Shown here in pieces: positions 1,645 to 44,534 of a DNA stretch of 64,000 nucleotides. The notes under the pieces are model-generated. The model had not been told where the DNA came from. It searched no databases and saw only the letters and a program-made list of their open reading frames with translations. A program made the translations under genes and the position numbers. How positions within the stretch are numbered: the stretch's first letter is position 1; each line of letters begins with the position of its first letter. This stretch comes from Rhodoferax sp. (GTDB taxonomy: Bacteria; Pseudomonadota; Gammaproteobacteria; Burkholderiales; Burkholderiaceae_C), in NCBI RefSeq assembly GCF_028688795.1, contig NZ_JAQTXM010000028.1:1-64000 (forward strand), read 5' to 3'.

Positions 1645-2553
1645 ATGCCACCTTTCACCCGCAAACCTTCGCAAGCGCTCAAGGGCGTTCGCATTTTGAG
1701 CCTGAGCTTGAACCTGCCCGGCCCGGCGGCCCTGCAGCGCCTGCGCCACATGGGGGCGACTTGCCTCAAGTTCGAACCACCAGCACCGCCCGGCGCGCCA
1801 GACAACATCACCGGCGACCCCATGAGCGCCTACAGCCGCACTGCCTTTGACGCCTTGCACCAGGGCATTCGCACCAGAGCGGTCGATTTGAAAACCGCTG
1901 CGGGTCAGAAAATACTTCAGCGTGAATTGGCAAAAACGGATGTCTTGCTGACCTCGTTTCGCCCCAGTGCGCTGGTCAAACTGGGGCTGGATTGGCAAGC
2001 GCTGCAAACCCGGCACCCGCGTTTGAGCCTTGTCGCTATTGTTGGCGCACCGGGCGCGCGTGCCAATGAACCCGGCCATGACCTGACTTATCTGGCTGAA
2101 AACGACCTGGTGACCGGCCTGGATTTGCCAGCCACCCTGTACGCCGACATGGGCGGCGCCTTGATGGCTTCCGAGGCGGTGCTGCAAGCCGTGCTGCTGC
2201 AGCGGCAAACCGAGCAGGGCGCGTATTTTGAAGTGGCGCTCTCAAAGGCAGCGGCCCACCTGGCACTGCCACGCAGTTGGGGGCTGACGCTGCCCGGCAC
2301 CATGATTGGCGGCGGCCATGCCGGCTACTGCGTCTACAAGTGCCAGGATGGTCGCGTGGCGCTGGCGGCACTGGAGCCGCACTTTGCCAAGGCCTTGTGC
2401 GCTGTTGCGGGCATTGACTGGACCACGCCGGCCACCATGATGGCGGCAACAACCCATGTGGCGATCGCCGCGTTTGTTGCCACGCAGACCCGAAAAGCGC
2501 TGGACAAGCTTTCAGATCAACACGACATTCCATTGCACACGCTACCAACCTAA
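1645..2553 (+). CDS. CaiB/BaiF family CoA-transferase (short form)
   Basis: The product resembles family III CoA-transferases and alpha-methylacyl-CoA racemases: LKGVRILSLSLNLPGPAA at the N-terminus, a DLKT segment, and GHDLTYLA containing the Asp expected to be the acyl-carrier residue. At about 302 residues from the ATG at 1645 it is shorter than typical 380-400-residue members, so the C-terminal lobe is reduced. An upstream in-frame start at 1597 would add 16 unconserved residues, so I chose 1645. The likely role is acyl-CoA transfer or racemisation with unknown substrate. The stop codon abuts a dispersed repeat at 2553. The next gene, ispF, is convergent. Confidence 0.75.
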   Translation: MPPFTRKPSQALKGVRILSLSLNLPGPAALQRLRHMGATCLKFEPPAPPGAPDNITGDPMSAYSRTAFDALHQGIRTRAVDLKTAAGQKILQRELAKTDVLLTSFRPSALVKLGLDWQALQTRHPRLSLVAIVGAPGARANEPGHDLTYLAENDLVTGLDLPATLYADMGGALMASEAVLQAVLLQRQTEQGAYFEVALSKAAAHLALPRSWGLTLPGTMIGGGHAGYCVYKCQDGRVALAALEPHFAKALCAVAGIDWTTPATMMAATTHVAIAAFVATQTRKALDKLSDQHDIPLHTLPT

Positions 2554-2597
2554 TAGCTGCTTACGCTTATCCCAAAAGGTCTAGAGCCTGATTTTCT
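2553..2597 (+). repeat. Dispersed ~45-bp element, copy 1 (intergenic)
   Basis: It begins within the stop codon of the CoA-transferase gene with ATAGCTGCTTACGCTTAT and continues with AGGTCTAGAGCCTGATTTT. These are the left and right blocks shared with copies at 3583, 16790, 26911, 28876, 34661, 37149, 41707 and 43671. Orientation is forward. It separates two convergent genes. Confidence 0.75.
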
Positions 2598-2654
2598 ATA
2601 TATTTACGCAGCATGCAGCCTGTGCATTCAAGGCTATATCAGGGCAACCACCAC

Positions 2655-3134
2655 TTAATTGGCAAACAGTAGCACCACAGCACGGGCCTCCATTGCCTGC
2701 CCTAGTCCGACCGGGCCCATTTTTTCTGCGGTTTTGGCTTTCACGTTGACCTGGTCGGGCTCAAGGCCCAGCGTCTGCGCCACTTTGGCGCGAATGGCGG
2801 GCATGTGCGGCATCAGCTTGGGGGCTTGGGCGATGATGGTGCTGTCCACATTTCCAATCTCATAGCCTTTGTCGCGCACCCGACGAGCCGCCTCGGCCAG
2901 CAAGATGCTTGAATCTGCACCCTTGAATTGCGCATCGGTGTCCGGAAAATGCGTGCCAATGTCGCCCAACGCCGCAGCGCCCAGCAGCGCATCGGTGATG
3001 GCGTGCAACAACACATCCGCATCTGAATGGCCCAGAAGCCCAAGGTGGTAAGGAACCTCCACCCCACCCAGGATGAGCTTGCGCCCTGCCACCAGCGCGT
3101 GAATGTCCCAACCTTCACCAATTCTGAAATTCAT
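2655..3134 (-). CDS. ispF: 2-C-methyl-D-erythritol 2,4-cyclodiphosphate synthase
   Basis: At 159 residues this is the normal IspF length. The N-terminal GEGWDIHAL supplies the zinc-binding Asp and His, [19 protein letters not shown] is the signature, and GDIGTHFPD and [10 protein letters not shown] follow. The C-terminal [16 protein letters not shown] is characteristic. It converts CDP-ME 2-phosphate to MEcPP with release of CMP in the non-mevalonate isoprenoid pathway, as a cytosolic trimer. It lies 21 bp downstream of ispD on the same strand, forming the usual ispDF pair. Confidence 0.96.
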
Positions 3135-41764: not shown

Positions 41765-41770
41765 ATAGCA

Positions 41771-42382
41771 TCAGTCATCATGTGGGTCAAGCCCGGGGAA
41801 CAACTCTGACGTGAAGCCAAACTGTGTGAAGTCGCGCACACGCATGGGGTAAAGCGTGCCAATCAGGTGGTCGCACTCGTGTTGCACGACCCGGGCGTGA
41901 AACCCTTCGACCGTGCGGTCAATCAAATCGCCATATTGGTTGAAGCCGGCATACCGAATATGGGTGAACCGCGGCACCTTGCCACGCAGGCCAGGAACCG
42001 ACAGGCAACCCTCCCAATCTTCAAATTGATAAGGCGCCAAGTCTGCAGGACTCTGCAGGTTGGCAAGCTGCAATGGCATCCAGTGCTGCGGTGCTTGCCT
42101 GGAGGGCATCAGCGGCGTGATCACCGGGTTGATCAGCACCGTGCGCGGCACCAAGGGTGCGTCAGGGTAGCGCGGGTTGCTGCTGTCGGTGCCAAAAATC
42201 ACCACCTGCAAGTCAACCCCAATTTGTGGCGCCGCCAGCCCGGCGCCGTCGGCGGCACGCATGGTGTCAAGCAGGTCGGTGATCAGCAGGTGCAACTCGT
42301 CAGTGTCAAACTGCGTCACCGGCGGCGCTGTGCGCAGCAACCGCGGGTCACCCATTTTGAGAATGTTACGAACGGCCATCAA
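41771..42382 (-). CDS. def: Peptide deformylase
   Basis: A 203-residue metalloenzyme with the three Def motifs: [18 protein letters not shown] (metal-ligand Cys) and QHECDHLIG (HExxH-type His ligands and catalytic Glu). It removes the formyl group from nascent chains. At 203 residues it is longer than E. coli Def (~170); extra sequence lies between motifs 1 and 2. The start is ATG 42382 or the adjacent 42379. It overlaps the 3' end of ligA by 17 bp and is probably co-transcribed with it. Confidence 0.94.
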
Positions 42383-44534
42383 GCATCTCCTTTAATTGGG
42401 CTTCATCCAGCACGGCCACGCCCAGTGCCTGGGCCTTATCGAGCTTGCTGCCCGCCTCAAGCCCCGCCACCACATAGCTGGTTTTCTTGCTGACGGAACC
42501 AGCCACCTTGCCGCCCGCAGCCTCAATCAAGGCTTTGGCCTCTTCACGGTCCAGTGTGGGCAAGGTGCCGGTCAGCACAAAAGTTTTGCCGCTTAAAGGT
42601 TGCGCGGCCACCGGGGCTGGCTCGCCTTCTGGCCAGGTCAGGCCGCAGGCACGCAACTGCTCAACCACTTCGCGGTTGTGTGGCTGGTCAAAAAAGGTTC
42701 GGATACTTTTGGCCACGATCGGACCAACGTCCGCCACGGCAAGCAACTGTTCTTCTGTGGCATCCATGATGGCGTCAAGCTTGCCAAAGTGACGCGCCAG
42801 TTCTTTGGCAGTGGCCTCGCCCACGTGGCGAATGCCTAAGCCAAACAAAAACCGGGGCAGCGTGGTGTGCTTTGACTTCTCCAAGGCATCCACGATGTTT
42901 TGCGCTGACAGCTGCGCCATGCGCTCAAGTTTTTTGAGCTGCTCCAGGGCGATGTCTTGCCGCTCGGTGGTGGGCAACCTGGCATACAAATCGTCGGCAC
43001 TGAGTTGTTCAATTTCAGCCCGCGCCCTGAAACCCAGGCGGTACAAATCAGGCAGCGTATGGATTACGCCAGCATCGACCAACTGGTCGACCAGTTTTTC
43101 ACCCAGGCCTTCCACCTCAACCGCGCGACGTTGCGCAAAATGCAAAATGGCCTGCTTGCGCTGGGCACGGCAAAACAGGCCGCCGGTGCATCGGTAATCG
43201 GCCTCACCTTCTTCGCGCACGGCGGCGCTGCCACACACCGGGCAAATGCGGGGCATGGTGAAGACTTCGGGGTTGCCCTGGCGTTTGTCCAGCAGAACGC
43301 TCACCACTTCAGGAATCACATCGCCAGCGCGGCGCACGATCACGGTGTCGCCCAGGCGCACGTCTTTGCGACGGGCTTCATCTTCGTTGTGCAGGGTGGC
43401 GTTGGTCACGGTCACGCCACCGACAAACACCGGCGCCAGTTTGGCCACTGGGGTGAGTTTCCCGGTGCGCCCCACCTGCACGTCAATGCCAAGCACGGTG
43501 GTCAGCATTTCTTGCGCCGGAAACTTGTGCGCCACCGCCCAGCGCGGCTCGCGCGTGACAAAGCCCAACTTGCGTTGCAACGCCAGGCTGTTGACCTTGT
43601 AGACCACGCCATCTATGTCATAACCCAAGCCATCGCGCTGCCCACCAATGGCGGTATAAAACGCTACTAATTCAGTAGCACCTTGCGCAATAGATACAAG
43701 GGTACAGACCGGAAATCCCCATATTTTCAAGGTTTGCAGCAGCTCGTAATGGGTTTGCCATTGCGGGCCGCCAGCCTCGGGGGGCGTCACCTCGCCCAGG
43801 CCATACGCAAAAAAGCTCAAGGGGCGCTGCGCGGCAATCGCAGGGTCCAACTGGCGCACGGCACCGGCGGCGGCATTGCGCGGATTCACAAAGATCTTTT
43901 CTCCGCGCTCACCGGCGGCAATACGCTGACGCTGGCGGTCGTTGAGGGCCTCAAAATCATCGCGGCGCATGTAGACCTCGCCGCGAACTTCCAGCACCGG
44001 TGGCACACCTACGGGCAAACGCAAGGGAATTTGGCCAATGGTGCGGATGTTCTGCGTGACGTTTTCACCCACCTCACCGTCACCCCGCGTGGCGGCCTGC
44101 ACCAGCACGCCATGTTCATAACGCAAGCTCATGGCCAGACCGTCAAACTTGGGCTCGGCCACGTACTCAATGGCCGGTTCAGCGTCAGTCAGGCTCAGCT
44201 CACGGCGAATGCGTGCGTCAAAATTTTCAGCACCGCTGGCCTCGGTGTCGGTTTCGGTGCGTATGCTCAGCATGGGCACGGCATGGCGCACTTGGCCAAA
44301 CTGGTCCAGCACCTTGCCGCCAACGCGCTGAGTGGGCGAGTCGGGCGAGTTCAGTTCGGGGTGTTTGGCTTCCAGGGCTTGCAATTGCCTAAACAGCCGG
44401 TCGTACTCGGCATCAGGAACAGTGGGCGCATCCAGCACGTAATATCGGTGCGCATGGGCGTGCAAGGTCTGGCGCAGTTGCGCCAACAGCGCAGCGTCCT
44501 CGGGCGCGGGGTCAAACAGGTCAGGTGTGGACAT
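42366..44534 (-). CDS. ligA: NAD-dependent DNA ligase
   Basis: About 722 residues from ATG 44534 ([16 protein letters not shown]); an upstream in-frame start at 44633 lies inside zipA and is unlikely. Domains: Ia/adenylation with the nucleotide-binding Lys in [19 protein letters not shown] fold, four-Cys zinc finger ([19 protein letters not shown]...CRAQ), HhH repeats and a C-terminal BRCT ([26 protein letters not shown]). It seals nicks in replication and repair. Residues ~273-288 lie over a dispersed-repeat match (43671-43716). It starts 11 bp after zipA. Confidence 0.96.
43671..43716 (+). repeat. Dispersed element, copy 9 (inside ligA, antisense)
   Basis: On the plus strand: TTCAGTAGCACCTTGCGCA then CAAGGGTACAGACCGGAAAT. 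It is diverged but collinear with the element over both blocks. It is translated in reverse as [17 protein letters not shown], the same phase as copy 6 in purL. LigA length is normal here, so it may be a replacement rather than an addition. Confidence 0.5.

Follow-up and report, generated by a model that had tools for sequence, protein, structure and literature searches.

The window analysed here is a stretch of 64,000 nucleotides from Rhodoferax sp. (NCBI RefSeq assembly GCF_028688795.1, contig NZ_JAQTXM010000028.1, positions 1 to 64,000 of the forward strand). It carries ten copies of a dispersed, non-coding element of about 69 bp, which we propose to be a recognition site in double-stranded DNA and probably a DNA uptake sequence (DUS). 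The initial annotation had described nine of these copies as pairs of short blocks; a weight matrix recovered all nine and added a tenth at 60007-60075. The copies and the genes in or beside which they lie are as follows.

2537..2605, + strand, element copy of 57.5 bits, overlapping a CoA-transferase III gene (1597-2553, +) at its 3' end
3574..3642, − strand, element copy of 59.0 bits, inside ispD (3156-3881, −)
16779..16847, − strand, element copy of 48.0 bits, immediately upstream of a HAD hydrolase gene (16848-17558, +), up to its start codon
26898..26966, − strand, element copy of 57.1 bits, inside an HGSNAT-like gene (26603-27373, −)
28866..28934, + strand, element copy of 45.9 bits, inside a U32 peptidase gene (27427-29466, +)
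34649..34717, + strand, element copy of 71.6 bits, inside purL (33860-38110, −), in a length-variable linker near codon 1143
37138..37206, + strand, element copy of 62.7 bits, inside purL (33860-38110, −) near codon 313
41705..41773, − strand, element copy of 82.3 bits, immediately downstream of the stop codon of glnD (39050-41704, +)
43659..43727, + strand, element copy of 35.3 bits, inside ligA (42366-44633, −) near codon 314
60007..60075, − strand, tenth element copy, of 47.9 bits, beside a response-regulator/HD gene (60081-61121, −); also present in genome G004

As first claimed, six of the nine copies originally listed lie inside genes recognised by Pfam (ispD, the HGSNAT-like gene, the U32 peptidase gene, purL twice and ligA), and the picture of a sequence that is dispersed between and inside genes, leaves their frames open and encodes no protein was borne out. 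The copy at 16779..16847 is counted as intergenic, although it is spanned by an opposite-strand frame of 294 codons without an assignment. A half copy proposed at 53719-53758 did not hold up, scoring below 8 bits; inspection by eye shows an inverted repeat there, short and of the form CTTGG...CCAAG, which may be a terminator.

Structure and abundance of the 69-bp element

The weight matrix started from 30 genome copies in which the right block was exact, and was refined iteratively on 864 kb, made up of the window and 40 stretches of 20 kb. Below, G000 denotes the own genome and other G-numbers the genomes compared, while "rich" and "poor" refer to genomes with many and few element matches. 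The matrix found 157 copies above 16 bits in the 864 kb of G000 and none in simulated sequence of the same dinucleotide make-up, whereas a scan giving no such excess had been named beforehand as the outcome that would speak against the element. By extrapolation, the 4.99-Mb genome holds about 900 copies, or about one per 5 kb, and they are dispersed rather than tandem. The pattern AAGGGCTAGAGGCC, with up to 2 mismatches, gave 348 matches in the genome against 14 for a reversed-pattern control. When only the short blocks were looked for in the window, mismatches being allowed, they occurred near chance level (9 against 4.3 expected; 14 against 10.6), so the evidence resides in the whole element.

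The edges of the sequence logo lie about 39 bases before and 29 bases after the first A of AAGGGC, its consensus being ARTYRCTAYTWWWTTWRTAGCTRCTTGCGCWTWWTTTAWAAGGGCTAGAGGCCWAWWW..Y.TAWAAWT, and the element holds about 61 bits of information. Spacing is rigid, 52 copies aligning with zero gaps, and the G+C content is 37% against 57% in the window. The two blocks first described, said to lie 8-10 nt apart, are indeed held at a fixed distance, with a spacer of 9 nt between GCGC and AAGGGC, but the element extends well beyond them. Several columns of the 157-copy matrix carry A and T about equally often while G and C are almost absent, which is not expected from random decay of a single master copy. 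The consensus includes the inverted repeats GCTAY/RTAGC and, in most dialects, also GCGCTT/AAGCGC or GCCCTT/AAGGGC; the earlier statement that the element is not a simple palindrome nevertheless stands, since none is conserved in the own genome and no columns covary.

Origin and coding context of the copies

We compared regions around purL of rich genomes (G004, G005 and G010) with those of poor genomes (G003, G006, G001 and G012), relating each site to its counterpart via the flanks. Three of 97 pairs (two rich-to-poor and one G004-to-G000) were dropped by an anchor-span filter (under 180 nt). The 94 anchored pairs that were left draw repeatedly on nine orthologous sites, above all the two in purL, and only 23 of the 53 elements in these stretches are represented by an anchored pair. 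In the 47 rich-to-poor pairs, covering eight sites, an element above 15 bits was never kept and a gap of 63-75 bp was never seen, nor was there an element-length gap in any of the 94 anchored pairs. Length was unchanged in 20 of the 47 and otherwise differed by −40 to −1 or by +147 to +156, the latter arising from one purL linker of G012; at four of the eight sites some poor genome had exactly equal length. By contrast, all 47 anchored rich-rich pairs kept the element, while it was absent from the dropped G004-to-G000 pair, also rich-rich, whose anchor was loose. Individual window copies gave the following pattern: the copy in the HGSNAT-like gene recurs at the same place in G005, and G001 is without it at unchanged length; the copy in the U32 peptidase gene is kept in G005 and missing from G003 and G012, where the stretch is 9-12 nt shorter, as well as from G001, there with a looser anchor. 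Around PurL codon 313 the same-genus orthologues shown align without gaps, bar one residue in G009, and the segment is 3 to 8 residues shorter in other families of the order; the element in purL alters the encoded protein.

These results indicate that, at the sites compared, the element apparently arises by substitution in place and not by insertion. The same test gave Redfield and colleagues the same answer for the uptake signal sequences (USS) of Haemophilus, which are not insertions (PMC1626085). Insertion of a mobile unit was rejected on the lack of element-length gaps at the sites compared, and the implication of the initial annotation that the copies are inserted, with boundaries and target-site duplications to be mapped, did not survive comparison with relatives lacking the element at eight sites.

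Coding context was assigned to 158 copies above 20 bits with a crude ORF (open reading frame) caller, by which 92% of the sequence was called coding. There were 76 copies within genes, 49 between genes and 33 overlapping gene ends, and the mean score fell from 71.5 bits between genes to 63.2 in overlapping copies and 54.2 within genes. Genic copies lay on either strand (43 same, 33 opposite), and 60 of the 76 shared one codon phase (32 same strand, 28 opposite). On the same strand, the favoured phase, as read from the consensus, is the only one in which neither consensus TAG forms a codon. Reading frames thus stay open because the site is built by substitutions within codons and the favoured phase avoids an in-frame TAG.

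Orientation and placement along the chromosome were even. Strict matches in G010 were split 43/41 (84 in all), and copies in the G000 stretches 88/69 (p 0.15); placement in G010, which is a single contig, was indistinguishable from uniform (Kolmogorov-Smirnov p 0.36). A replication-oriented or terminus-specific signal was rejected, as neither polarity nor a terminus signal appeared in G010 at any origin position tried.

Distribution, retention and apparent loss among Comamonadaceae

Within the genus, 13 of 24 genomes (the own included) had at least 90 matches and the other 11 had 0 to 15. Across 200 family genomes, 74, in 54 of 126 genera, had a match at E 1e-5, and none was found in 16 genomes from other families of the order. 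Among the matches listed (at least 80 loci), the exact pattern occurred in Rhodoferax, Polaromonas, Curvibacter, Acidovorax, Paenacidovorax, Simplicispira, Diaphorobacter and Hylemonella, as well as in one Alcaligenaceae, Mesopusillimonas. The belief that similar elements are common in Comamonadaceae was therefore correct, with matches in named genomes of several genera.

Single sites differ in how well they are kept. At purL codon 313 every one of the 16 rich genomes examined, which represent 14 other genera and were drawn from the 41 with the highest match counts, has the element in the same orientation to the gene and with 34 to 72 bits, while five of six poor genomes had nothing above 15 bits and G006 a 19-bit remnant. 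At ligA codon 314 it was present in 14 of 18 rich genomes, three of these with only about 16 bits, and in one of six poor genomes (G015, 30 bits, in one of two ligA fragments). A second ligA site, near codons 42-53, was occupied in nine of the 18 rich genomes. An element lay near the end of glnD in only six of 18, two oriented as in the window and four reversed, and G008, a rich but incomplete genome, is without the purL codon 1143 site. The reversed elements at the glnD 3' end (L329, L330, L334 and L339), set against 41705-41773 of the window, suggest separate origins at one place. Some sites are thus ancient while others turn over. The same sequence at all these sites in orthologues of distant taxa had been named as evidence against a dispersed element; single sites such as purL codon 313 are indeed shared, but poor relatives are without the element, so that in the sense meant this was not what we found.

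Fifteen orthologous pairs, which are not independent of each other, showed differences at 16% of high-information columns (57/360), 23% of A/T columns (28/120), 38% of low-information columns (40/105) and 20% of flanking positions (541/2700). A-T exchanges made up 36% of the changes in A/T columns, 28% in low-information columns, 18% in high-information columns and 5% in flanks.

A PurL tree, in which the G008 row is in the wrong reading frame, left gain versus loss unsettled, with five rich rows grouping at 90/90 and the rest poorly resolved. Nonetheless, we favour loss of the element in poor species over their never having had it, because one codon is shared across many genera and relic copies occur. 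The relics in G015 (ligA, L308, 30 bits) and G006 (purL, L181, 19 bits) were possibly caught in the act of losing the system, although assembly contamination is possible for G015. A search for an alternative motif in poor G003 and G006 (80 kb each) passed only a T/A-run pair in G003, in a weak test by which nothing passed in rich G010 either. Some otherwise poor genomes, e.g. G073, G075, G176 and G105, have a single strong match (E down to 1e-12), possibly in imported DNA.

Rich genomes also differ in dialect. Calls in eight genomes, resting on 9 to 23 copies per genome except in G000, gave GCGC..AAGGGC in G000 and G005, GCCC..AAGGGC in G004 and GCGC..AAGCGC in G146, G210, G052 and G104, with G010 mixed.

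Outside chromosomes, 2.9 million viral contigs contained the 17-base pattern three times, one of them a good element, and a Diaphorobacter plasmid stretch held two copies in 50 kb. The class 1 integron of the E. coli plasmid NZ_CP022165.1 (L270:1482-1557) has a 58-bit copy in a DUF1010 cassette between dfrA12 and aadA2, which we take to be gcuF. Of the 30 plasmid rows listed, 25 show this same match, and the identity band to which it belongs takes in 1760 of 1762 matching records. Its element hints that the cassette may derive from a Comamonadaceae-like genome.

Candidate function and relation to known systems

We propose that the element is a 69-bp recognition site in double-stranded DNA that probably serves as a DNA uptake sequence. 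This reading is suggested by a set of features that the element has in common with known uptake sequences: it is abundant, arises by substitution, favours non-coding DNA, is biased in reading frame but balanced between strands, and has A/T tracts and dialects. The element is over-represented at hundreds of copies per genome, as is required of a DUS or USS, and it shows the non-coding preference, reading-frame bias, lack of orientation bias, dialects and substitution origin by which these are recognised. In the proposed mechanism, a type IV pilus competence machine with a surface receptor would bind site-bearing DNA, recognising the GC-containing blocks (GCTAY, ATAGCT, CTTGCGC and AAGGGCTAGAGGC) by their sequence and the intervening A/T tracts by their shape or flexibility. 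DNA of kin, once imported, would recombine and spread better-matching sites by substitution in a molecular drive; coding constraint would oppose the drive, leaving the best matches between genes, and where specificity is lost the sites would decay in place.

In 2014 Verminephrobacter eiseniae, a member of Comamonadaceae, was reported to undergo type IV pilus-dependent, sequence-selective transformation; Acidovorax temperans proved transformable, and DNA from other species of Acidovorax failed to transform the Acidovorax tested (PMC4212676). The available portions of that report do not name an uptake signal, and we propose that the element may be the signal behind selective transformation of the V. 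eiseniae type in Comamonadaceae.

Several observations weigh against an uptake role. The length of 69 bp far exceeds that of USS (to 32 nt) and DUS (to about 13 nt) (PMC12616744), so that this is not the short motif expected of the class, and a density of about one per 5 kb is sparser than the roughly one per kb of USS and DUS (PMC1626085). A. defluvii, whose record carries a candidate match, showed no detectable transformation (PMC4212676). ComEC was found in G000 and in 195 of 200 family genomes and did not separate rich from poor; loss of competence genes as the cause of poor genomes was rejected on the same count. Helical phasing of the A/T tracts did not reach significance when every period was considered (p 0.09); a period of 10.5 bp taken singly gave p 0.03, and the best period was 7.75. 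Three of the longest element-free stretches did not point to depletion in foreign DNA, the 16 frames examined in them comprising metabolic, sensory and nuo genes; foreign islands as the cause of such gaps were rejected, none being seen among these frames. The nuo genes share one of these stretches (L047:2341-19698, contig C56 of the own genome) with a large glutamate dehydrogenase gene. A plasmid record of Rhodoferax antarcticus, NZ_CP019241.1 (L271), carries ten copies in 31.9 kb, one of them weak (17 bits); as this density is chromosomal, it may represent part of a chromosome or a replicon that has long been resident. Finally, FimT/GspH proteins were not supported as receptor candidates, as trends within the genus and across the family were opposite. 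The Pfam match was weaker in rich than in poor genomes of the genus (p 0.008, genomes without a hit being set to E = 1 and some being incomplete; e.g. L043:13188-13763 and L247-L264), but the trend reversed across the family (41 rich genomes against 126 without matches, p 0.009, with best E-values rounded to powers of ten), and several types were present among the retrieved proteins. The uptake reading does not rest on this candidate. The element would work like an uptake sequence, while we do not file it as a proven member of the class, its length being beyond the known range.

An alternative with some appeal, though we hold it to be rather unlikely, is a chromosomal site around which a nucleoid-organising or recombination protein, or another chromosome-wide machine, would wrap about 69 bp of DNA, the site being spread by substitution and kept by selection. 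Length and gap-free spacing would suit a wrapped complex, and the retention of one codon across genera and uniform placement agree with it. However, sites such as KOPS, Chi and matS are biased by strand or position, and the element is not; close relatives do without it, the protein was changed where it sits in purL, and its sites turn over, between codons 42-53 and codon 314 of ligA and through reversed copies after glnD.

A transcriptional or RNA element (a terminator, attenuator or small RNA) is improbable. Intergenic copies do abut genes, at a median of 2.5 nt by the crude ORF caller, and the core forms a short palindrome in certain dialects, but genic copies occur on both strands, and the genes flanking intergenic copies may be tandem (29), convergent (12) or divergent (7). 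The best of 2701 column pairs in 157 copies covaried at only z 2.9, RNAalifold found no pairs in 52 copies, two candidate stems in eight genomes had mean observed pairing within 0.04 of that expected, and Rfam gave no match in the window at gathering scores. A conserved hairpin or RNA was rejected on the lack of covariation and of an Rfam match in the window.

Least probable is a decayed miniature mobile element spread by copying (a miniature inverted-repeat transposable element, MITE, or a repetitive extragenic palindrome, REP): the copies are many, dispersed and bounded, with short inverted repeats, and their identities spread slightly wider than in column-shuffled copies (standard deviation 0.075 against 0.055), so that slight shared ancestry is possible, but no near-identical pairs occur among 157 copies (mean identity 0.54; maximum 0.81, in a pair 2.3 kb apart, against 0.77 after shuffling), columns do not covary, A/T columns avoid G and C, scores vary with coding context, and the 94 anchored pairs lack element-length gaps.

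If the element is an uptake sequence, its nearest counterparts are those of Pasteurellaceae and Neisseriaceae, the only groups for which uptake sequences are described in the available parts of PMC7811141 and PMC1626085. It resembles the USS of Haemophilus and other Pasteurellaceae, which have a core, AAGTGCGGT, and two AT-rich tracts, in its many copies, GC-containing core with A/T tracts, substitution origin, lack of orientation bias, non-coding preference and subclade variants (PMC1626085, PMC7811141). It differs in being unrelated in sequence, longer and sparser, in being missing from many close relatives and in that its role in uptake is inferred. With the DUS of Neisseriaceae, which is recognised by the minor pilin ComP (PMC12616744), it shares clade dialects and genome-wide copies, but a DUS is uninterrupted, at most about 13 nt long, and has no AT tracts. 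A repeat of Bordetella and Comamonadaceae, the Beta-proteobacterial repeat element (BRE, PMC3110155), likewise occurs between and inside genes; compared by description only, it is 75-91 bp long with 69% GC in Bordetella, often tandem and present in at most 29 copies, unlike the dispersed element of 37% GC described here.

Parts of the element have been in print since 2017. PMC5217627 lists, as potential novel motifs, ATAGCT(N)22CAAAAG in Polaromonas naphthalenivorans (125 copies, 81% intergenic) and GCTTAT(N)5AAGCG in Acidovorax ebreus (114 copies, 94% intergenic), and gives Rhodoferax ferrireducens T118 the most motif pairs (140). As printed, both motifs are in register with the element, at −23..+10 (Polaromonas) and −11..+4 (Acidovorax), and very probably represent pieces of two of its dialects; in the available text they are given without full length, conservation, origin or function. 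The initial annotation knew of no description of origin or function. No report of the full element was found in the literature searched, where subscription journals were mostly outside coverage.

If the proposed role is correct, Comamonadaceae would be a third lineage with uptake sequences, with a much longer signal and with apparent losses between close species, and comparison among the lineages could address the reason for selective uptake and the way in which a receptor changes together with hundreds of genomic sites. A concrete candidate signal would thereby be available for the sequence-selective transformation reported from Comamonadaceae in 2014, and the element may serve as a marker for DNA originating in this family.

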